A DNA stretch of 13,215 nt from Rhodospirillaceae bacterium (GTDB taxonomy: Bacteria > Pseudomonadota > Alphaproteobacteria > MPNO01 > UBA2964): assembly GCA_018660305.1 (NCBI GenBank), contig JABJKO010000313.1:1-13215 (forward strand). The letters are read 5' to 3'. Shown here piece after piece: positions 1,807-10,689 of this stretch (position 1 is the stretch's first letter; the number at the start of each line of letters is the position of its first letter). The notes below the pieces were generated by a model. The model made no database searches, was not told where the DNA came from, and worked only from the letters and a program-made list of their open reading frames with translations. The position numbers and the translations under genes were made by a program.

Positions 1807-3159
1807 TCAGTTCTCCTTAAACAGATCCAGCACCGCCCGTGCCGCGGCGAAGGCGGCGGCGTCCTGCTCGGCATAGCCCATGATCTGCAGACCCAGCGGC
1901 AGCCCATCGCATTGGAGGACCGGCAGCGAAAAGGACGGTGTGCCCAATATGGACGACGGCACCGCGAACACCGCATCGCCGGTCCAGTTGTGCCCGACTG
2001 GGGCCGGACCGGGGGCCGAGAGCGTCACGCAGACATCGGCGTCGGCTTTCAGCCCTTTATAGATATCGCGGATCTGCTGGCGTTTGCGCAGCAGCCCCTG
2101 ATAATCCTCATTGGTCATGGCCTCGGCGAATTCCAGCCGGTCCTGGGCTTCCGGGCTCAGCTTGGTGCGGTCCATGTCCCGCGCATAGGTGTTGAGCGGC
2201 CAGCGGAACTCCCAGCTATTGAGCCCGCCCGACAGCGCGACGCCACCGGCGATGGCCGCCTCGATGGCCGCGACGCCGGCATGACTTTCCCGGTCGATCA
2301 CTTCGATATTGGCATCCACCAGCATCCCGCGCGCATCGGACAGCGCCATCTTGGCCGATGGTTCGGCGCCCTCCCAGCCTTCGGTCTCCAGCATGGCGAC
2401 GCGCTTTGGTTTTTTCGCCGCCGGGGCTTCCATTGGCCCCGACACGCCGGGGCGGCCGGAATCGCCTCCGACCCTTGCGACGATGGCGCGGGCGATTTCC
2501 CAGGTTTCCTCCAGCGTGGCCGCGAAGGTGCTGGTGGCGCTCTGGCTGATGGTATCGAAACTGCCGCCGCGGTTGATGCCGCCCACCGTGGGCTTGAAGG
2601 CGAACACGCCGCAGAAGCTGGCCGGCCGGATGGTGGAGCCCAGACCCTGGGTGCCAAGCCCGGCCGGTACCATGCCGCAGGCGACAGACGCCGCCGTGCC
2701 GCTGGAGGAGCCGCCCGGCGTGCGTGACAGATCCCACGGGTTGCGGGTGCCGCGCGCTGGCTGGGCGGCGAACTCGGTGGTGACCGATTTGGCGAGGATG
2801 ACCGCGCCGGCCTCGCGCAGCGCGGCGACGGCGGCGCAATCGCGCTTGCCTTCCCAGCCGGTGAACAGGTCCGATCCCTGCCCGGTCGGCATGTCCGCGG
2901 TTTCCATGATGTCCTTGATGCAGAGCGGCATGCCGTCGATCAGCGATAAATTCTTGCCCTCTTTCCAGCGCGTGGAGGCGGCATCGGCGGCGTCGCGCGC
3001 GCCGTCAATATTGGTGGCCACGAAGGCGCCGATATCGGGTTCCAGCGCCTCGATGGTGGTCAGGCACTCCTCGAGAAACGCCCGTGGGCCGGATGATCCG
3101 TCCTTGAAGGAGGGTAATGCTGCGCGATAGGACCGCATGGTGGGTGTCGTGTCTGCCAT
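1807..3159 (-). CDS. Amidase-signature family amidohydrolase (amidase 1)
   Basis: A 450-residue cytoplasmic enzyme of the amidase signature (AS) family, which hydrolyses amides to acid and ammonia with a Ser-cisSer-Lys triad. The triad is visible as K82 (in CIKDIMET), S151 (first Ser of GGSSSGTAAS) and S175 (in GLGSTIRPA). Its spacing (93 residues Lys to Ser, 24 Ser to Ser) matches characterised AS enzymes. The start has a strong GGGAGG ribosome site just upstream. The gene is last in the leftward operon, 58 bases after the gamma-CA-like gene, and is a clear paralogue of amidase 2: about two thirds identical over the central 130 residues, counted by eye. No Asp-tRNA/Glu-tRNA amidotransferase partners (GatB, GatC) are present, so a GatA role is unlikely. 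The substrate is unknown. A catabolic amide, or an amide-like intermediate of ring breakdown, would fit the context. Confidence 0.88.
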   Translation of the reverse strand: MADTTPTMRSYRAALPSFKDGSSGPRAFLEECLTTIEALEPDIGAFVATNIDGARDAADAASTRWKEGKNLSLIDGMPLCIKDIMETADMPTGQGSDLFTGWEGKRDCAAVAALREAGAVILAKSVTTEFAAQPARGTRNPWDLSRTPGGSSSGTAASVACGMVPAGLGTQGLGSTIRPASFCGVFAFKPTVGGINRGGSFDTISQSATSTFAATLEETWEIARAIVARVGGDSGRPGVSGPMEAPAAKKPKRVAMLETEGWEGAEPSAKMALSDARGMLVDANIEVIDRESHAGVAAIEAAIAGGVALSGGLNSWEFRWPLNTYARDMDRTKLSPEAQDRLEFAEAMTNEDYQGLLRKRQQIRDIYKGLKADADVCVTLSAPGPAPVGHNWTGDAVFAVPSSILGTPSFSLPVLQCDGLPLGLQIMGYAEQDAAAFAAARAVLDLFKEN

Positions 3160-3217
3160 TGGTTGCCTCCCAGGGCTTTCTTCCCGTTTCCAGCCGGCCG
3201 CTTTATGGTTGGGTTTG

Positions 3218-3739
3218 TTATTCCAGCGGTTTTAGTTCGTTTCGGTACCGTTCGGCGCGGGCCACATAGCTCGCGACGATGCGTTTCATCAGATCCCGTT
3301 GGTCGTCCGACACCTCGCGGATGACCCGCCCCGGTGCGCCGAGCACCAGCGAATTGTCGGGGATTTCCTTGCCTTCGCCCACCAGCGCCTTGGCGCCGAT
3401 CAGACAGTTCCTGCCGATTTTGGCCCCGTTGAGGATGACGCTGTTGATGCCGATCAGGCTACCCTCGCCGATAGTACAACCATGCAGCATGCACATATGG
3501 CCGACCGATACATTGTCGGCCAGCGTCAGGGGAAAGCCGGGGTCCGTATGCATCACGCAGCCATCCTGGATGTTGACGTTATCGCCGATCACCATGGGAT
3601 CGTTATCGCCGCGCAGGACGGAATTCCACCAGATGCTGACATTGTTCCCCAGCGTCACGTCACCGATCACATCGGAATCGGGGGCGATCCAGACGCCCTC
3701 TCCGGTGCTTGGTTCCTTGGAGCCGAGGGCGTATTTCAT
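3218..3739 (-). CDS. Gamma-carbonic anhydrase-like hexapeptide-repeat protein
   Basis: A 173-residue left-handed beta-helix protein of the gamma-CA/YrdA/PaaY/CaiE group. Hexapeptide repeats of the type IGDNVNIQDG run from about residue 20 to 125, followed by a C-terminal helix (about 143-170) that packs on the helix in trimers. The three metal-binding histidines of the family are present: H64 (in VMHTD), H81 and H86 (in VGHMCMLHGC). Length is typical for short bacterial members that lack the acidic loop of the archaeal enzyme Cam. Its ATG overlaps the TGA of amidase 2 (ATGA, 3736-3739), implying translational coupling. Members may hydrate CO2, or act as acyl-CoA thioesterases as PaaY does. 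The position between two amidases suggests a helper role in the same pathway, which is an inference. Confidence 0.88.
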   Translation of the reverse strand: MKYALGSKEPSTGEGVWIAPDSDVIGDVTLGNNVSIWWNSVLRGDNDPMVIGDNVNIQDGCVMHTDPGFPLTLADNVSVGHMCMLHGCTIGEGSLIGINSVILNGAKIGRNCLIGAKALVGEGKEIPDNSLVLGAPGRVIREVSDDQRDLMKRIVASYVARAERYRNELKPLE

Positions 3740-5094
3740 GCCAGCTCGGACTGGATGGACCCGGCGGTGGCGAACAGGTCGGCATCCTGATCGGTGAAGC
3801 CCATGAGCTGGAGCCCCAGCGGCATGCCGTCATCTTCGAATACCGGCATGGTCAGGCTGGGACAGCCCAGCAGCGAGGTGGGCACGGTGAAGATCGGATC
3901 ACCGGTCCAGTCGAGCCCCACCGGCGCCGCGCCGGGAGCCGACAGGGTCATGCAGGCATCCACATGGGCGCTGAGCGCCTCATAAATCGCCCGGACCTTG
4001 GCCCGCTCGGCGATCAGCCCGGCATATTGCTCCTGACTCATGCCCTGGGCTTCTTCCAGGCGTCCCACCGCGCTGGTGCTGAGCTTGGATTTGTCCATGT
4101 CATTGGCATAGGTGTTGAGCGGCCAGTGGCCCTCCCAGGCATTGATCTCCATGGACAGTTCGCGGGCGCCGGCGATGGCTTTCTCGGCGGCCGCGACGGC
4201 GTCGCTGGAACTCTTGTCCACCACGTCGATATCGGCGGCTTTCAGCTTGTCGCGCGCGTCGTTGATGGCCTGCTTGGCGGCATCGGTGGCGGTCGGCCAG
4301 CCGGCGGTTTCCAGAAAGGCAATGCGCTTCGGCTTTTTTGCTGCCGGCAGATCGATGGGGCCGGTGAGCCCCACATAGCCCGGATCGCCCCCGGCGCGCA
4401 GCGAAATGGCGCGGGCCACTGTCCAGGTGTCGGCCAGGGTGGCGGCCAGGACGCCGGAGCAGCTCTGGCTGAAATCGTCGAAGCTGCCACCGCGGTTGAT
4501 ACCGCCGACGCTGGGTTTGTACCCATAGGCGCCGCAATAGCCGGCGGGGCGGATGATGGAGCCGATAACCTGGGTGCCCAGCGCCGCCGGCAGCATGCCG
4601 ATCCCCACCGAGGCCGCGGACCCGCTGGAGGACCCGCCCGGCGTGCGTGTCGTATCCCACGGGTTGCGGGTGGTGGACGGGTGCGAGGAGGCGAATTCGG
4701 TGGTCACGGTCTTGGCGACCACCACCGCGCCGGCGGCACGGAGGGCCGCTACGGCGGCGCAATCGCGCTTACCATCCCAGCCGGTAAATAATGGCGAGCC
4801 CTGCCCGGTGGGCATATGGGCGGTTTCCATGATGTCCTTGATGCCGATGGGCATGCCGTCGATGGGCGATAGCGTTTTGCCGGCTTTCCAGCGTTCGCCG
4901 GCGGCATCGGCGGCAGCCCGGGCGCCCTCGAAATTGGTGGCGGCAAAGGCGCCGACCCGTTCCTCCTGGGCCTCGATCACCTCGATGCAGCGCTCGAGAA
5001 AAGCGCGCGGTGAATCGCTGCCATCGGCAAAGGCGCTTGTGGCGGCAATATAAGCCCGCCGGCCGAGCCCGGCTGTGTCCTGATCAGAAGGCAT
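3736..5094 (-). CDS. Amidase-signature family amidohydrolase (amidase 2)
   Basis: A 452-residue AS-family hydrolase, paralogous to amidase 1. Triad: K86 (in GIKDIMET), S155 (in GGSSSGSAAS) and S179 (in VIGSIIRPA), with the same 93- and 24-residue spacing. Shared stretches include GKRDCAAVAALR and VGGINRGGSFD. The start has AAAGGAGA about 5 bases upstream (complement of 5100-5107). The gene is second in the leftward operon, 25 bases after the SDR stop, and overlaps the next gene by 4 bases. The paralogues differ most just after the TTEFA motif (SSHPSTT versus AQPARGT) and in the C-terminal half, which suggests different substrates or divided roles. The true substrate is unknown. Confidence 0.88.
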   Translation of the reverse strand: MPSDQDTAGLGRRAYIAATSAFADGSDSPRAFLERCIEVIEAQEERVGAFAATNFEGARAAADAAGERWKAGKTLSPIDGMPIGIKDIMETAHMPTGQGSPLFTGWDGKRDCAAVAALRAAGAVVVAKTVTTEFASSHPSTTRNPWDTTRTPGGSSSGSAASVGIGMLPAALGTQVIGSIIRPAGYCGAYGYKPSVGGINRGGSFDDFSQSCSGVLAATLADTWTVARAISLRAGGDPGYVGLTGPIDLPAAKKPKRIAFLETAGWPTATDAAKQAINDARDKLKAADIDVVDKSSSDAVAAAEKAIAGARELSMEINAWEGHWPLNTYANDMDKSKLSTSAVGRLEEAQGMSQEQYAGLIAERAKVRAIYEALSAHVDACMTLSAPGAAPVGLDWTGDPIFTVPTSLLGCPSLTMPVFEDDGMPLGLQLMGFTDQDADLFATAGSIQSELA

Positions 5095-6068: not shown

Positions 6069-8381
6069 ATGAATTATATCGGACAATCGGTGGCGCGGCT
6101 CGAGGACCGCCGCCTGCTGCGTGGCGAGGGGCAGTTCGTCGATGACGTGACGTTGCCTGACATGGCGGTGATGGCCATTTTGCGGAGCCCCCATGCCCAT
6201 GCCCGTATCCGGTCGGTGGATTTGTCGGCGGCCCGCGCCTTTCCCGGCGTGATCGACGCCTTTTCCGCCGGCGATCTGGACGGCGATCTGCCGCTTATCC
6301 CCCTTCGGCTGACGCCGTTCGAGGGTTTCGAGCGGTTCCTGCAGGCCCCCATCGCGGCGGAAAAAGTCCGGTTCGTGGGCGAGCCGGTTGCCGTCGTGGT
6401 GGCGAACAGCCGCGCCGTAGCCGAGGATGCGCTGGCGCGGATCGAGGTCGATTACGATATCCTGCCCCCTGTGCTCGACAATGATTCGGTGGCCTCCGGC
6501 GACGTGCTGGTGCATGAGGCGGCGGGTGAAAATTATGGTACCCGATACCAGGTCTCGCGGGGCGATGCCGATTCCGCCTTTGCCGGGGCGGACTATACCC
6601 GCCGTGAAATTTTCACCACCAACCGGCACGCCCCCTGTCCCATGGAGACCCGCGGGCTGATCGGCATCTTCGATCCCGACAAACCGCTCTTGCGCCTGAT
6701 CGGCGCCACCAAGGTGACCTATTTTAACCGCCGCCACCTCGCCGCCGCCTTTGATCTGCCGGAGGAGGCCGTGGAGCTGATCGAGGTCGATGTGGGGGGC
6801 GCCTTCGGCCAGCGCGGCGAGCTCTACCCCGAAGACTATCTGGTGCCCATGGCCGCAAGGCGGGTTCGCCGCCCGGTCAAATGGATCGAGGACAGGCGCG
6901 AGCATCTCATGGCGGCCAACCATTCGCGCGATATCCAGTTCGATATGGAGATCGCCGCCACCAATGAGGGCATGATCCTGGGCATGCGGGCGATTGTGCG
7001 CGGCGACATGGGCGCCTATATGCGGACCAATGGCGGTGTCGTGACCGCCCGTGCGGCTCTCTATCTTCCCGGCAGCTACCGGATTCCCAATTTCACCTGC
7101 GACGTGGAATTCCTGATGACCAACAAGACGCCGGTGGGCACCTATCGCGGCCCCGGCCGGTTCGAGGCCGGGTTCTGCCGAGAGCGGATCATCGACATGA
7201 TGGCCGCCGATCTGGGGCTGGATCCCGCCGAGACCCGGCTGAAAAACCTTCTCACCCCCGACGAGCTGCCCTATCCCATCGGTGAGCTGGTGCCGGGGGA
7301 CCGCGACACAATCATGGAGAAAGGTGATTTCCTCGATGGGCTGCGGCGCGTTCTTGACGCCATCGACTATGATCAATGGAAAGACCGGCAGGGTGAGCTG
7401 GTGGATGGCAAGTTGATCGGGTTGGGTATCGCCTGTTTTACCGAAAGCAGCGCCGCCGGTCCGCCCGAGACCGCGCGCGTTACCGTGGATCCCCATGGCG
7501 GCATCGAAGTGCGCATCGGCGCCTCCACGGTGGGCCAGGGCGTGGAAACCGCCATGGCGCAGATTTGCGGCGATCTTCTGGAAATTCCCATGGAAGGGAT
7601 CACGGTGCTGCACGGCAGCACGACCCTGCTGGATAGCGGTGGCGGGACGTTCGCCAGCCGCAATACGGTGATGGCCGGCAACGCGCTGCGGGTCGCCGTC
7701 GAGACATTGCAGGCACGCTGTATCGAGCTTGCCGCTTTGCGCTGGAACCAGGCCACCGACGGCTTGAGTTATGGCGATGGCGGCGTGCGCAACGACGAAA
7801 ATGGCGAATTTCTGGGCATTGTCGAGCTTGCCGCCTTCGAATCATCACGCGCGGAGTCTCCGGATTCTGGCGGGCTGTCGGCGGACGGCGTGTGGAATAA
7901 TCAGGGCAAGTTGGCCTTTTCCAGCGGCGCCCATGCCTGTCTTCTCGCGGTCGATCCCGAAACCGGAGAAGTCGAGCTCAAGAAATATGCCCTTCTGGAA
8001 GAGGTCGGCCGGGCGCTCAACCCCGCCATGGTGGAAGGCCAGTCGGTGGGCGGGTTGGTCATGGGGCTCGGCGGCACGTTTCTCGATCACCTGATCTATG
8101 ACGATGACGGCCAGCTTCTGACCACCAACCTCGCCGACTATCTGCTGCCGGTCAGCACCGGTCTGCCGGAGATCACCAGTATCATGCGCGAAGACTATCC
8201 CTCCGACTCCAACCCCATGGGATTCAAGGGCGTGGGTGAAGGCGGGATCACGTCTGTGGCCGGGGCGGTCGGCAACGCGGTGGCGCAGGCCCTCAAAGGC
8301 CACGGCGTCGAGATCACGGATTTGCCGCTCAGCCCGGCCCGGCTCTATGCGCTTATTGACGAGGCGGGATCTAAAATATGA
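6069..8381 (+). CDS. Xanthine dehydrogenase-family molybdenum-binding subunit (form II CoxL-like)
   Basis: A 770-residue large subunit of a molybdenum hydroxylase of the xanthine dehydrogenase/aldehyde oxidase/CODH family, which hydroxylates C-H bonds of heteroaromatics or aldehydes with water as oxygen source. An N-terminal a/b hammerhead domain spans about 15-130, followed by the two Moco-binding domains. Cofactor motifs are VDVGGAFGQRG (240-250), GASTVGQGVETA (484-495) and GGGTFASRN (524-532). E724 in KGVGEGG is the expected catalytic glutamate. The active-site loop reads GTYRGPGR (357-364), close to the AYRGAGR type of form II proteins. It lacks the AYxCSFR loop of true CO dehydrogenase. 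Ribosome site GGGAG ends 5 bases before the ATG. The iron-sulfur and FAD subunits are not adjacent, which is unusual. The stop overlaps the amidohydrolase start (ATGA), so the two are probably co-translated. Confidence 0.9.
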   Translation: MNYIGQSVARLEDRRLLRGEGQFVDDVTLPDMAVMAILRSPHAHARIRSVDLSAARAFPGVIDAFSAGDLDGDLPLIPLRLTPFEGFERFLQAPIAAEKVRFVGEPVAVVVANSRAVAEDALARIEVDYDILPPVLDNDSVASGDVLVHEAAGENYGTRYQVSRGDADSAFAGADYTRREIFTTNRHAPCPMETRGLIGIFDPDKPLLRLIGATKVTYFNRRHLAAAFDLPEEAVELIEVDVGGAFGQRGELYPEDYLVPMAARRVRRPVKWIEDRREHLMAANHSRDIQFDMEIAATNEGMILGMRAIVRGDMGAYMRTNGGVVTARAALYLPGSYRIPNFTCDVEFLMTNKTPVGTYRGPGRFEAGFCRERIIDMMAADLGLDPAETRLKNLLTPDELPYPIGELVPGDRDTIMEKGDFLDGLRRVLDAIDYDQWKDRQGELVDGKLIGLGIACFTESSAAGPPETARVTVDPHGGIEVRIGASTVGQGVETAMAQICGDLLEIPMEGITVLHGSTTLLDSGGGTFASRNTVMAGNALRVAVETLQARCIELAALRWNQATDGLSYGDGGVRNDENGEFLGIVELAAFESSRAESPDSGGLSADGVWNNQGKLAFSSGAHACLLAVDPETGEVELKKYALLEEVGRALNPAMVEGQSVGGLVMGLGGTFLDHLIYDDDGQLLTTNLADYLLPVSTGLPEITSIMREDYPSDSNPMGFKGVGEGGITSVAGAVGNAVAQALKGHGVEITDLPLSPARLYALIDEAGSKI

Positions 8382-9379
8382 CTATCGACGTCCACGCCCA
8401 TTTTGTGCCGCCCGAAGTGATCCATACGCTCGCCGATCGCGGAGCCGATTTCGGGATCGATCTGATTGAGACCCAACCGGGTTGCCACTGTTGCAAGTTT
8501 CCGTCGGGCCTGACCATCAGGCCGTTTTTCGAGACCCTGACCAACGTGGATTTGCGCCTTGCCGACATGGACCGGCAGAAGATCGACCGGCAGGTGCTCA
8601 CATTGTGGGCCGATATTTTCGGCTATGAGCTGCCGCCCGACAAAGGTCTGGCCTGGCATGGGCTGATGAACGATTGCCTGGCGCGGCTGTGCGATCAGTC
8701 GCCGGAGCGCTTCGCCTGGATGGGGTCGGGGCCCTTGCAGGATGCGGCGCTGGCCGCCCGCGAGCTGGAACGGACCCTCAAAGCAGGCGCCATCGGCACC
8801 ATGATCGCCGCCCATATCGAGGACCGTAACCTTGGCGAATGCGATCTCGATGAATTCTGGGCCGCCTGTGTCGAGCTGAACGCACCGGTGTTCGTCCATC
8901 CCGCCCAGCCCGTCGCGCCGCCGCGCGCCGAGCGCTTCGCCCTCAACCAGATCTGCGCCTACACAAATGATACGGCGCTGACCATCGGGTCCATGGTCTC
9001 CACCGGTGTGCTGGACCGGTTTCCCGACCTGCAGCTCATCCTGTCCCATGGCGGCGGCTCGCTGCCCTATCTCATCGGCCGGTTCGACCGCATGTACCGT
9101 GCCGCCGATCCCAAGGTCACCGGCACCATCGCCGAACGCCCGCCATCGGACTATCTGGCGCGGTTCCATTACGACACCATCCTGCATCATGGCCCGGCGC
9201 TCCGCTATCTGCGCGATCTGGTGGGGGTCGAGAAAATGCTGCTGGGCACCGACGTGCCGTTTCCACCGGGGGACCCCGATGCGCTGGCCAGCCTGCGCGC
9301 CGCCGCGTTCAGTGATGAGCAGATAAACCAGATCGCCGAACTCAACCCGCGGGCTCTGTTCGAGGCGCTCGGCGGGTAG
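8378..9379 (+). CDS. Amidohydrolase family 2 protein, ACMSD-like decarboxylase
   Basis: A 333-residue TIM-barrel metalloenzyme of the amidohydrolase_2 family. Members include 2-amino-3-carboxymuconate-6-semialdehyde decarboxylase (ACMSD), gamma-resorcylate decarboxylase and 5-carboxyvanillate decarboxylase. Metal and catalytic residues are in place: H6 and H8 (VHAH), H174 (VFVHPAQP), H224 (LSHGGG) and D292 (GTDVPFP). Total length and these positions are close to those of ACMSD. A CHCC cluster (residues 36-39) in the substrate-side loop is unusual. The ATG overlaps the TGA of the preceding gene, so the pair forms a two-gene unit. A non-oxidative decarboxylase acting on a hydroxylated aromatic acid or ring-cleavage product would fit the neighbours. 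Hydrolysis cannot be excluded. Confidence 0.87.
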   Translation: MTIDVHAHFVPPEVIHTLADRGADFGIDLIETQPGCHCCKFPSGLTIRPFFETLTNVDLRLADMDRQKIDRQVLTLWADIFGYELPPDKGLAWHGLMNDCLARLCDQSPERFAWMGSGPLQDAALAARELERTLKAGAIGTMIAAHIEDRNLGECDLDEFWAACVELNAPVFVHPAQPVAPPRAERFALNQICAYTNDTALTIGSMVSTGVLDRFPDLQLILSHGGGSLPYLIGRFDRMYRAADPKVTGTIAERPPSDYLARFHYDTILHHGPALRYLRDLVGVEKMLLGTDVPFPPGDPDALASLRAAAFSDEQINQIAELNPRALFEALGG

Positions 9380-9391
9380 GACCTTCTAAGT

Positions 9392-9475
9392 CGTCATCCT
9401 CGTGCTCGACACGAGGATCTTCAGCCAACGAGCCTCGACAGGTATGAGATCCTCGGATCAAGTCCGAGGATGACG
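9392..9475. repeat. Nested palindromic repeat pair (REP-like element)
   Basis: CGTCATCCTCG (9392-9402) and its exact complement CGAGGATGACG (9465-9475) bracket the element. Each arm is itself a hairpin. Arm 1 has 9 bp, 9396-9404 with 9410-9418, loop CTCGA. Arm 2 has 9 bp, 9449-9457 with 9463-9471, loop TCAAG. The two arms, one inverted, match at about 24 of 30 bases. GTCATCCTCG palindromes of this style are common dispersed intergenic repeats in alphaproteobacteria. It lies 12 bases past the amidohydrolase stop and may also end or protect that transcript. Confidence 0.75.
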
Positions 9476-9496
9476 AGGGGTGTTTTAGGGTGGGCC

Positions 9497-9526
9497 TTGT
9501 TTCGACTCTGAGGCGGGTGCTAAATT
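9497..9526 (+). promoter_or_regulatory. Candidate promoter of the peroxiredoxin gene
   Basis: TTGTTT (9497-9502) and TAAATT (9521-9526) are separated by 18 bases. Each matches a sigma-70 consensus box at about 4 of 6 positions. The -10 box ends 41 bases before the ATG, between the palindromic repeat and the ribosome site. Confidence 0.35.
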
Positions 9527-9567
9527 TTCCCGTCAATAATGACACACTGATAGGGGAAGAGGGCAAA

Positions 9568-10020
9568 ATGGCCTTGATTGAAACTGGTGCCCAGGCACCG
9601 GCTTTCTCGCTACCCAACCAGGATGGCAGTAACGTGTCGCTGGCCGATCATGCCGGCAAATACGTTCTGCTCTGGTGGTATCCGAAAGCCGACACACCTG
9701 GGTGAACCATCGAAGGCAACGGGTTCCGTGATAGAATCCAGGACTTCAATGACAAGAATGCCGTTATCGTCGGGATCAGCATCGATCCTGCCGGTGACAA
9801 CAAAGCGTTCAAGGATAAATTCGATTTTCCTTACGATCTGCTGAGCGATGCGGACACTTCCATGTCCAAAGCGTACGGCGTGGACATTACCGATTCGGGG
9901 CGCACCAGCCGCAAATCGGTCCTTGTCGGCCCGGACGGCAAGGTCGCGGTATCTTACGATCCCGTGACGCCGGCCGAGCATCCCGACCAGGTCCTCGCCG
10001 ATCTGGCCAAACTCGGCTGA
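9568..10020 (+). CDS. Selenocysteine-containing Bcp-type peroxiredoxin (TGA at 9703-9705 read as Sec46)
   Basis: A thioredoxin-fold peroxidase of the AhpC/TSA, BCP/PrxQ-like group, which reduces peroxides in the cytoplasm. One frame runs from ATG 9568 to TGA 10018-10020, interrupted only by TGA at 9703-9705. Read through, it gives 150 residues of normal family length. Before the TGA: PAFSLPNQDG (11-20) and LLWWYPKADTPG (34-45). After it: TIEGNGFRDR, VIVGISIDP (66-74), LLSDAD (91-96) and TSRKSVLVGPDGKV (113-126). The TGA falls exactly on the peroxidatic cysteine of the YPKxxTPGCT motif, after T43, and R115 matches the conserved active-site arginine. There is no Cys anywhere else, so it would be a one-Sec enzyme resolved by an outside thiol. 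Ribosome site AAGAGGG lies 4 bases before the ATG, and a SECIS-like hairpin follows the TGA. A recent nonsense mutation is the alternative, but coding is intact on both sides. Automated calls would give a 45-residue fragment. Confidence 0.87.
9703..9739 (+). promoter_or_regulatory. Sec-coding UGA and putative bacterial SECIS hairpin
   Basis: The UGA (9703-9705) is followed by two mutually exclusive folds. Fold A: GGGTTC (9721-9726) pairs with GAATCC (9734-9739), 6 bp with one G-U. Its 7-base loop CGTGATA has G at position 2 and begins 21 bases after the UGA. Fold B: ACGG (9719-9722) pairs with CCGT (9726-9729) around loop GTT, 17 bases after the UGA. Both meet the usual bacterial SECIS rules: short stem, G among the first two loop bases, loop 16-37 bases downstream. 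The hairpin would recruit SelB. No folding was computed. Confidence 0.6.
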
Positions 10021-10027
10021 TCAGCCA

Positions 10028-10043
10028 GATCACGAACGTGATC
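10028..10043. repeat. Short palindrome after the peroxiredoxin gene
   Basis: GATCACG-AA-CGTGATC is a perfect 7-bp inverted repeat with a 2-base spacer, 8 bases past the stop. It could be a regulator site or a minor RNA hairpin. Nothing else ties it to a function. Confidence 0.35.
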
Positions 10044-10054
10044 GACACAGCCAG

Positions 10055-10094
10055 CGCCGTCCCCAGCGAAAGCCGGGGGCGGCGTTGTCTTATT
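10055..10094 (+). terminator. Rho-independent terminator of the peroxiredoxin gene
   Basis: CGCCGTCCCC (10055-10064) pairs with GGGGGCGGCG (10075-10084) over 10 bp with one G-U. An inner GC-GAAA-GC tetraloop hairpin caps it. The stem is followed by TTGTCTTATT. It sits 35 bases after the stop codon at the right place to end that transcript. The tract is only partly T-rich. Confidence 0.65.
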
Positions 10095-10110
10095 GTGTGG
10101 TGGTCGGCCC

Positions 10111-10689
10111 ATGCCCGATAAGCCCCGGGTAAAAAACCCCCGCAAGATGACGCCCAAGCGGCTTGAGAATATTGCGATTTATTACTGTCAGCGCTTTCTG
10201 ACCTCTGAAGCCAAACTGGCCAAGCATCTGGAAAACCGCCTTTTCCGCGAGGTGGCGGATGCCCAGGAACGCGTGGAATTCGCCAAAGAAATCCCCGCCA
10301 TCGTGAAGAAGCTGGCCGGTGCCGGACTGGCCAATGACCGCGAGGCGGCCTCGGCCAAGCTGCGCGGCGCCCTGCGGTCCGGCTACGCCAGGAAAGCCGC
10401 CGTGGCCGTCGCCGCCCGCTCGGCCCGCGTCGATAGGGAAATTGTCGAGGCGGAATTGGCGGAGGCCGCCCGGGACGCTTTGCCGGACATTGATTTCGAA
10501 AATCTCGATCGCCGCGAAGAAGGCGCGGCCCTGGCTACGGAATCCCTCAGACGCGCCCGCCGCGGTCCCTGGCGCCCGCGCGGCCAGGACGAAACCACAA
10601 AACGCCGGGATATTGCCTGGCTTCAGCGCCGGGGATTCGGGTTTGAGGACATTCGCAGCGCGATGGATATTGATTTTCTGGAGGAGTGA
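10111..10689 (+). CDS. recX: RecX family regulatory protein
   Basis: A 192-residue, mostly helical, highly charged protein with the layout of RecX, which binds RecA filaments and modulates recombination and the SOS response. Features seen are the opening three-helix repeat NIAIYYCQRFLTSEAKLAKHLENR (split: NIAIYYCQRF, LTSEAKLAKHL), the central AGLANDREAASAKLRGALRSGYARKAA region, broken here as AGLANDREAA and LRGALRSGYARKAA, and a third repeat ending in RRGFGFEDIRSAMD. ATG 10111 is preferred because the typical N-terminus follows it. A TTG at 10093 would add 6 residues, and neither start has a strong ribosome site. recA is not in the window, so this is a stand-alone recX. A basic N-terminal tail (PDKPRVKNPRKMTPKR) precedes the first repeat. 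The family call is good, but the repeats are divergent. Confidence 0.78.
   Translation: MPDKPRVKNPRKMTPKRLENIAIYYCQRFLTSEAKLAKHLENRLFREVADAQERVEFAKEIPAIVKKLAGAGLANDREAASAKLRGALRSGYARKAAVAVAARSARVDREIVEAELAEAARDALPDIDFENLDRREEGAALATESLRRARRGPWRPRGQDETTKRRDIAWLQRRGFGFEDIRSAMDIDFLEE

Follow-up and report, generated by a model that had tools for sequence, protein, structure and literature searches.

An in-frame UGA that probably encodes the peroxidatic selenocysteine of a Bcp/PrxQ-type peroxiredoxin in an alphaproteobacterium

What does the TGA codon mean that interrupts an otherwise open peroxiredoxin gene in a 13,215-nucleotide stretch of Rhodospirillaceae DNA (contig JABJKO010000313.1; the whole stretch is called the window below)? 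A reading made from the letters of the window only had proposed that a Bcp-like frame is split by one TGA at the codon of the catalytic cysteine, residue 46, and that selenocysteine (Sec) replaces the redox cysteine there. Codon comparison, a hairpin behind the UGA and the sel genes of relatives support this proposal, and we are highly confident that the gene encodes a selenoprotein, i.e. that the UGA is decoded as Sec with the aid of the hairpin, and that the product is a 150-residue peroxiredoxin of predicted Bcp/PrxQ fold carrying Sec in place of the peroxidatic cysteine. The grounds are comparative: the reading frame, the position of the UGA, the hairpin, the co-occurrence of sel genes in relatives and the predicted fold. 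Sec insertion, peroxidase activity and the reductant are what we infer from them.

The frame opens with an ATG, upstream of which lies the purine-rich stretch GGGGAAGAGGG, and its single internal stop is the TGA at codon 46, in the context KADTPG-TGA-TIEGNGFRD. The read-through protein contains no cysteine at all, and its Pfam AhpC-TSA match (111.8 bits, residues 7–127, cut-off 26) runs across the TGA, as does its Redoxin match (70.6 bits, residues 6–136). Coding continues in frame past the TGA to a second TGA, as the sequence-only reading had stated. When 11 frames of the window were checked for stops, the peroxiredoxin frame was the only one with an internal stop.

Table 1. Features in and around the predicted selenocysteine peroxiredoxin gene (positions in the window)
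Feature	Position	Strand	Basis or remark
Amidohydrolase	8378–9379		upstream of the peroxiredoxin gene
Predicted selenocysteine peroxiredoxin gene (Bcp/PrxQ type, 150 residues, Sec46)	9568–10020	+	frame, Pfam, homologues, fold model
In-frame UGA predicted to be read as selenocysteine, peroxidatic position; motif P39-x-x-x-T43-x-x-U46	9703–9705	+	relatives' codons
T43 codon, Thr of the T-x-x-U/C motif	9694–9696	+	invariant, 61-row alignment
R115 codon, conserved Arg	9910–9912	+	invariant, 61-row alignment
SECIS-like hairpin, 6-bp stem (9721–9726 with 9734–9739), 7-nt apical loop CGUGAUA (9727–9733)	9721–9739	+	15 nt 3' of the UGA
UGA serving as stop of the peroxiredoxin gene	10018–10020	+	frame reading

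The codon homologous to codon 46 was examined in a scan of genome contigs from a species-genome collection. Of 576 confirmed stretches, the best 80 were kept; among these it was TGA in 32, TGC or TGT in 48 and TGG in none, and because of this selection the share of TGA does not give its prevalence. The occurrence of TGA at the same codon in 32 loci of other genomes excludes chance, and the 48 loci are the cysteine homologues that had been suggested as a check. Judged by their record titles, 21 of the 32 TGA loci come from Alphaproteobacteria, and we regard this as a well-controlled selenoprotein family in that class; the other titles name Gammaproteobacteria, Immundisolibacterales, Gemmatimonadetes, Planctomycetota, Phycisphaerae, SAR324 and Flavobacteriales, and these loci may have been wrongly binned. 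We also sampled 297 genomes from the order to which G001, the source of the closest relative, belongs. Among the matches listed, the best match had TGA at the site in 16 genomes, and two genomes (G068 and G141) had a TGC gene of 56–58% identity; a 17th genome, G093, carries a TGA gene that is a distant paralogue.

Public protein records present the site differently. A homologue search found 1124 entries, the best 120 of which had tryptophan (82) or cysteine (27) at the site or did not match the motif (11). Five of these 11 (P0009, P0083, P0095, P0101 and P0107) are 103–104 residues long and start just past the UGA; P0009 is the entry of the window's own gene, in this stub form. The selenoprotein thus appears to be mis-recorded in P0002–P0007, P0083, P0095, P0101 and P0107, and the family illustrates how databases mis-call such genes, either as a 103–104-residue stub or with an active-site tryptophan.

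The 82 tryptophans could be taken to mean that TGA encodes tryptophan (code 4) in the window's organism. They suggest, however, that code 4 was used in gene calling on short metagenome contigs, and the tryptophan at the site is best read as TGA translated in that way. TGA ends the peroxiredoxin gene, ten further frames of the window were checked, of which six also end in TGA and none has an internal one, and only TGA, TGC and TGT were seen in the 80 genome-contig loci, so that a tryptophan codon has a vanishingly small chance of being the right answer. To our knowledge, tryptophan is unable to serve as the peroxidatic residue in peroxiredoxins. The stubs, for their part, are what an ordinary ORF caller leaves of this gene, namely a 103-residue tail, and they would be expected if a nonsense mutation had turned it into a pseudogene. 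That explanation is extremely improbable, because the same TGA stands in 32 of the 80 loci and the coding sequence is conserved before and after it (L017 and L030 leave their contigs), and because dN against eight relatives was 0.11–0.26 upstream and 0.18–0.41 downstream of the hairpin at a dS of at least 0.78 or saturated beyond computing; the silent sites of the hairpin are, moreover, frozen (see below). Decay behind the TGA in close relatives, which the sequence-only reading had named as evidence against itself, was not seen, either as frameshifts or as relaxed constraint. Cysteine being the usual residue at the site (48 of the best 80 loci), a sequencing or assembly error in a true TGC or TGT codon might also be suspected, but TGA occupies the same codon in many other assemblies, and does so together with a hairpin that the 48 cysteine genes lack; we give an error hardly any credence. 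Selenocysteine is the reading that we retain for codon 46.

The sequence-only reading had advised a search for a SECIS element, and a SECIS-like hairpin was found. In all 33 TGA genes (the 32 of the best 80 of 576 loci, and the window) the sequence 15 nt past the UGA follows the pattern GGR-TTC-CGT-GAY-MGA-ATC-C, with the loop CGUGAYM, and its silent sites are fixed: TTC, CGT and ATC, AGA or CGA, and GGG or GGA, each in 33 of 33. Elsewhere in the same genes, CGT makes up 12% of the Arg codons. At the corresponding sites of the 48 cysteine genes, Arg is encoded by six different codons and Phe by TTC in 25 and TTT in 23 cases, and the hairpin is not common to these genes.

The pairing of the helix is intact in all 52 aligned Sec rows, despite the fixing of rare codons, and over the 50 distinct rows every one of the 300 cells in the 6-bp helix is paired. 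Four of the six pairs never vary, the third pair occurs as GU, AU and GC, and a two-sided change is found in one row only (L114, genome G192). When the partners were moved by one to three columns as a sliding control, pairing fell from 100% to 66.7% or less. In a shuffle control, 10 or 11 of 500 shuffles reached the observed value on four measures, and 455 did so on the measure of further pair types, the fifth; this control is weak since the hairpin varies so little. RNAalifold also put forward a lower stem (columns 10–13 with 42–45), which was broken at one pair in up to 9 of the 52 rows and was rejected.

In the published bSECIS model (PMC13188914, consulted in part), the loop has 3–9 nt with a G in its first two positions, the stem has 4–16 bp, the loop lies 16–37 nt from the UGA, and the minimum free energy is at most −7.5 kcal/mol. 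The hairpin of the window has a 7-nt loop with G at position 2 and a 6-bp stem, and its loop lies 21 nt from the UGA, so that its geometry agrees with the model. The folding energy is less favourable and reaches the limit only when flanking sequence is included. Its 19 nt alone fold with −4.5 kcal/mol; the 45 nt after the UGA reach −9.4 kcal/mol, a value that relies on a lower stem which we do not claim and that gave z = −0.63 against shuffles. The 45-nt stretch reached −7.5 kcal/mol in 45 of the 52 rows and missed it in seven, and the hairpin was part of the lowest-energy fold in 49, the exceptions being L009 and the second copies of L122 and L123. In a search of genomes, the 19-nt motif was present in 31 of 31 TGA genomes, as expected from its derivation from them, and in none of seven control genomes with a strong tRNA-Sec match and a cysteine gene; a reversed control pattern gave no match, and the window contains the motif once, at the hairpin.

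The hairpin might be a mere by-product of the conserved protein sequence GFRDRIQ: conservation extends to the amino acids, the invariance of four pairs leaves thin covariation, and by itself the hairpin is only modestly stable. A by-product would not account for silent positions fixed to rare codons, as with CGT in 33 of 33 genes against a background of 12%, or for pairing that is held where the protein differs (G to E in L114; D to A and I to T in L118), and it sits poorly with the lack of the motif in the seven control genomes. We thus consider it very unlikely, and a SECIS-like function of the hairpin remains the reading that we favour.

The sel genes, which had been proposed as a check on the genome of the window itself, were present in the genomes of relatives carrying the TGA form. 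For tRNA-Sec we counted matches of at least 63 bits, at a gap in the scores, rather than at the Rfam threshold of 47 bits, since matches of about 50 bits, which are probably other tRNAs, also pass the latter. The 31 TGA genomes had SelB over the cut-off in 30 cases, SelA in 29, SelD in 28 and tRNA-Sec in 25, the strong tRNA-Sec match being absent from six; the 18 cysteine genomes had SelB in six, SelA in six and tRNA-Sec in seven (Fisher p = 2e-6, 1e-5 and 0.005 for SelB, SelA and tRNA-Sec, respectively). In the 297 genomes of the order, SelB was found in 11 of the 16 TGA peroxiredoxin genomes versus 25 of the 281 others, or in 12 of 17 versus 24 of 280 if G093 is moved to the TGA group. The machinery is, accordingly, not exclusive to genomes with the TGA peroxiredoxin.

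Five TGA genomes of the order had no SelB over the cut-off, and each of them has at least one other sel gene. G001 has SelA, SelD and a 90-residue start of SelB directly 3' of selA; in G198, SelA and SelD were found and SelB was not over the cut-off, and in G149, tRNA-Sec and SelD, again with no SelB over the cut-off. G215 and G192 showed SelD only, which bears an in-frame TGA of its own; SelA, SelB over the cut-off and tRNA-Sec were not found in them. None of SelA, SelB, SelD and tRNA-Sec was found in G068 and G141, the two genomes with TGC genes. Such absences are weak evidence, since MAGs are numerous among the named records. By LepA DNA, the window's organism was nearest to G236 (76%) among 24 genomes of the family of G001, and in G236 SelA, SelB, SelD, tRNA-Sec and a TGA peroxiredoxin are all present.

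The best SelD match has an in-frame TGA in many genomes (G012, G003, G192, G215, G236 and others), which probably make more than one selenoprotein. G231 has two tRNA-Sec matches, one of them on the contig of its Sec peroxiredoxin (C89).

The AlphaFold2 model of the read-through protein had a pLDDT of 96.6, with residue 46 close to where helix 44–55 begins; its best PDB matches were Bcp/PrxQ enzymes, and the 1-Cys enzyme AhpE was close behind. T43 and R115 were invariant in all 61 rows of the alignment, in line with the earlier designation of R115 as the conserved Arg. This Arg has an active-site role in peroxiredoxins. A role of the Thr of the T-x-x-U/C motif is described in PMC8533274 (consulted in part). 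The resolving cysteine of PrxQ, five residues on, is absent from all 33 TGA genes (32 from the best 80 of 576 loci, plus the window), and 18 of the 33, including the window, have no cysteine anywhere in the stretch read (L017 being cut by the contig end); the remaining genes contain between one and four, whose positions differ.

We propose that the hairpin would direct SelB and tRNA-Sec to decode the UGA as Sec, and that the selenol of Sec46, activated by T43 and R115, would attack the peroxide and be converted to a selenenic acid. Since the protein has neither the PrxQ resolving cysteine nor any other, an external thiol, either thioredoxin or one of low molecular weight, would most likely reduce the oxidised selenium. 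We consider such a one-selenol cycle probable.

Sec peroxiredoxins with a TxxU motif, abundant in ocean metagenomes, are already known. In the sections of the following papers that we consulted, the TxxU peroxiredoxin (COG1225) ranks second in abundance among the known selenoproteins of the Sargasso Sea set, with 43 sequences (PMC1088965), GOS contributed 253 sequences (PMC2398784), and a 2016 survey counted it in 78 organisms (PMC5029168). The claim made from the letters that such proteins belong to a limited set of bacteria was therefore too strong, as this peroxiredoxin is among the commonest published marine selenoproteins. Likewise from partial texts, the alphaproteobacterial Sec users known to a 2006 survey had FdhA only (PMC1794560), and a tRNA-Sec nested in alphaproteobacterial selB has already been published (PMC8124441).

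The marine proteins (COG1225/Bcp; PMC1088965, PMC2398784 and PMC9312934) share with the window protein the Bcp-type domain, the peroxidatic Sec in T-x-x-U and a SECIS after the UGA. The consulted portions of these accounts treat the family as a whole and do not describe the clade of the window, the missing resolving cysteine or the fixed SECIS, and we found no paper devoted to this clade among openly licensed PMC papers. Refinements offered here are the cysteine-free active site, the near-invariant SECIS and a likely reversion from Sec to Cys.

PrxU (NF040737) belongs to the same superfamily, but the window protein scores 48.9 bits against its cut-off of 270 and has 150 residues against 233 profile positions, and is thus of a different subfamily. 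With Bcp/PrxQ thiol peroxidases (NF006960; PDB 3drn, 5enu, 5epf and 5iiz) it shares the fold, the PxxxTxxC/U motif and the conserved Arg; it differs in having Sec for Cys, scores 104.8 bits against a cut-off of 140, and lacks the cysteine five residues on that 26 of the 48 cysteine genes (best 80 of 576) possess. AhpE (PDB 1xxu and 4x0x; 1-Cys according to the entry title) has the same fold (TM-score 0.89–0.90 by query length), but is Cys-based and 28–29% identical.

A tree was built from 102 rows and 149 columns, which are few, and rooted at the midpoint. One supported clade (98/90) held 50 Sec rows and two TGC rows. The TGC rows, on a long branch (0.6), were nested in a supported 34-row subset (99/91), and their sister placement (99/78) fell short of full support. 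Their position inside the Sec clade suggests that the two TGC relatives have likely reverted from Sec to Cys. Two more Sec rows, L031 and L074, fell outside the clade on long branches. Sec forms that stand beside Cys forms of machinery-less relatives provide a natural experiment on why a peroxidase keeps selenium, and the same comparison bears on how a one-selenol peroxiredoxin gets reduced. We are evenly divided on a broader proposal, in which the genes would form a distinct, mostly alphaproteobacterial clade of one-selenol peroxiredoxins that has dropped the resolving thiol, is encoded by a solitary gene with a near-invariant 19-nt SECIS, and exchanges Sec for Cys when the machinery is lost; catalysis in members such as the window protein would then depend on one selenium atom and a reductant from outside.

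A paralogous Sec group, L117 (1072–1515, −), L118 (1077–1520, −), L120 (889–1329, +) and L121 (883–1323, +), formed one clade (100/100) in which the TPG before Sec is replaced by GGG or GNN and the SECIS-like hairpin is still kept; with the catalytic Thr lost, the chemistry should differ. In L122 (782–1708, −) and L123 (749–1801, −), Sec peroxiredoxin genes stand in tandem pairs, the second copies having the active site AGTYGUS.

The neighbourhood was scanned for ORFs within 6 kb of the 33 genes, 3 kb on both sides being available in only 20 of the 32 fetched loci. No neighbour family recurred in more than four of the 33 loci, so that the gene looks solitary, and the scan found no operon partner or reductant gene. 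The ORF downstream of the peroxiredoxin gene was weakly RecX-like, its 25.2 bits falling short of the Pfam cut-off of 26. A scan of positions 9380–10150 gave one promoter-like site, inside the peroxiredoxin gene, and no terminator, and a comparison with plasmids gave no DNA match. Between the amidohydrolase and the peroxiredoxin gene lies an inverted repeat (9391–9476; 30-nt arms, 83% complementary), possibly a dispersed palindromic element. Farther upstream (1807–5094), two related amidase genes, 75% identical over a 300-nt stretch, flank a gene for a hexapeptide-repeat protein.
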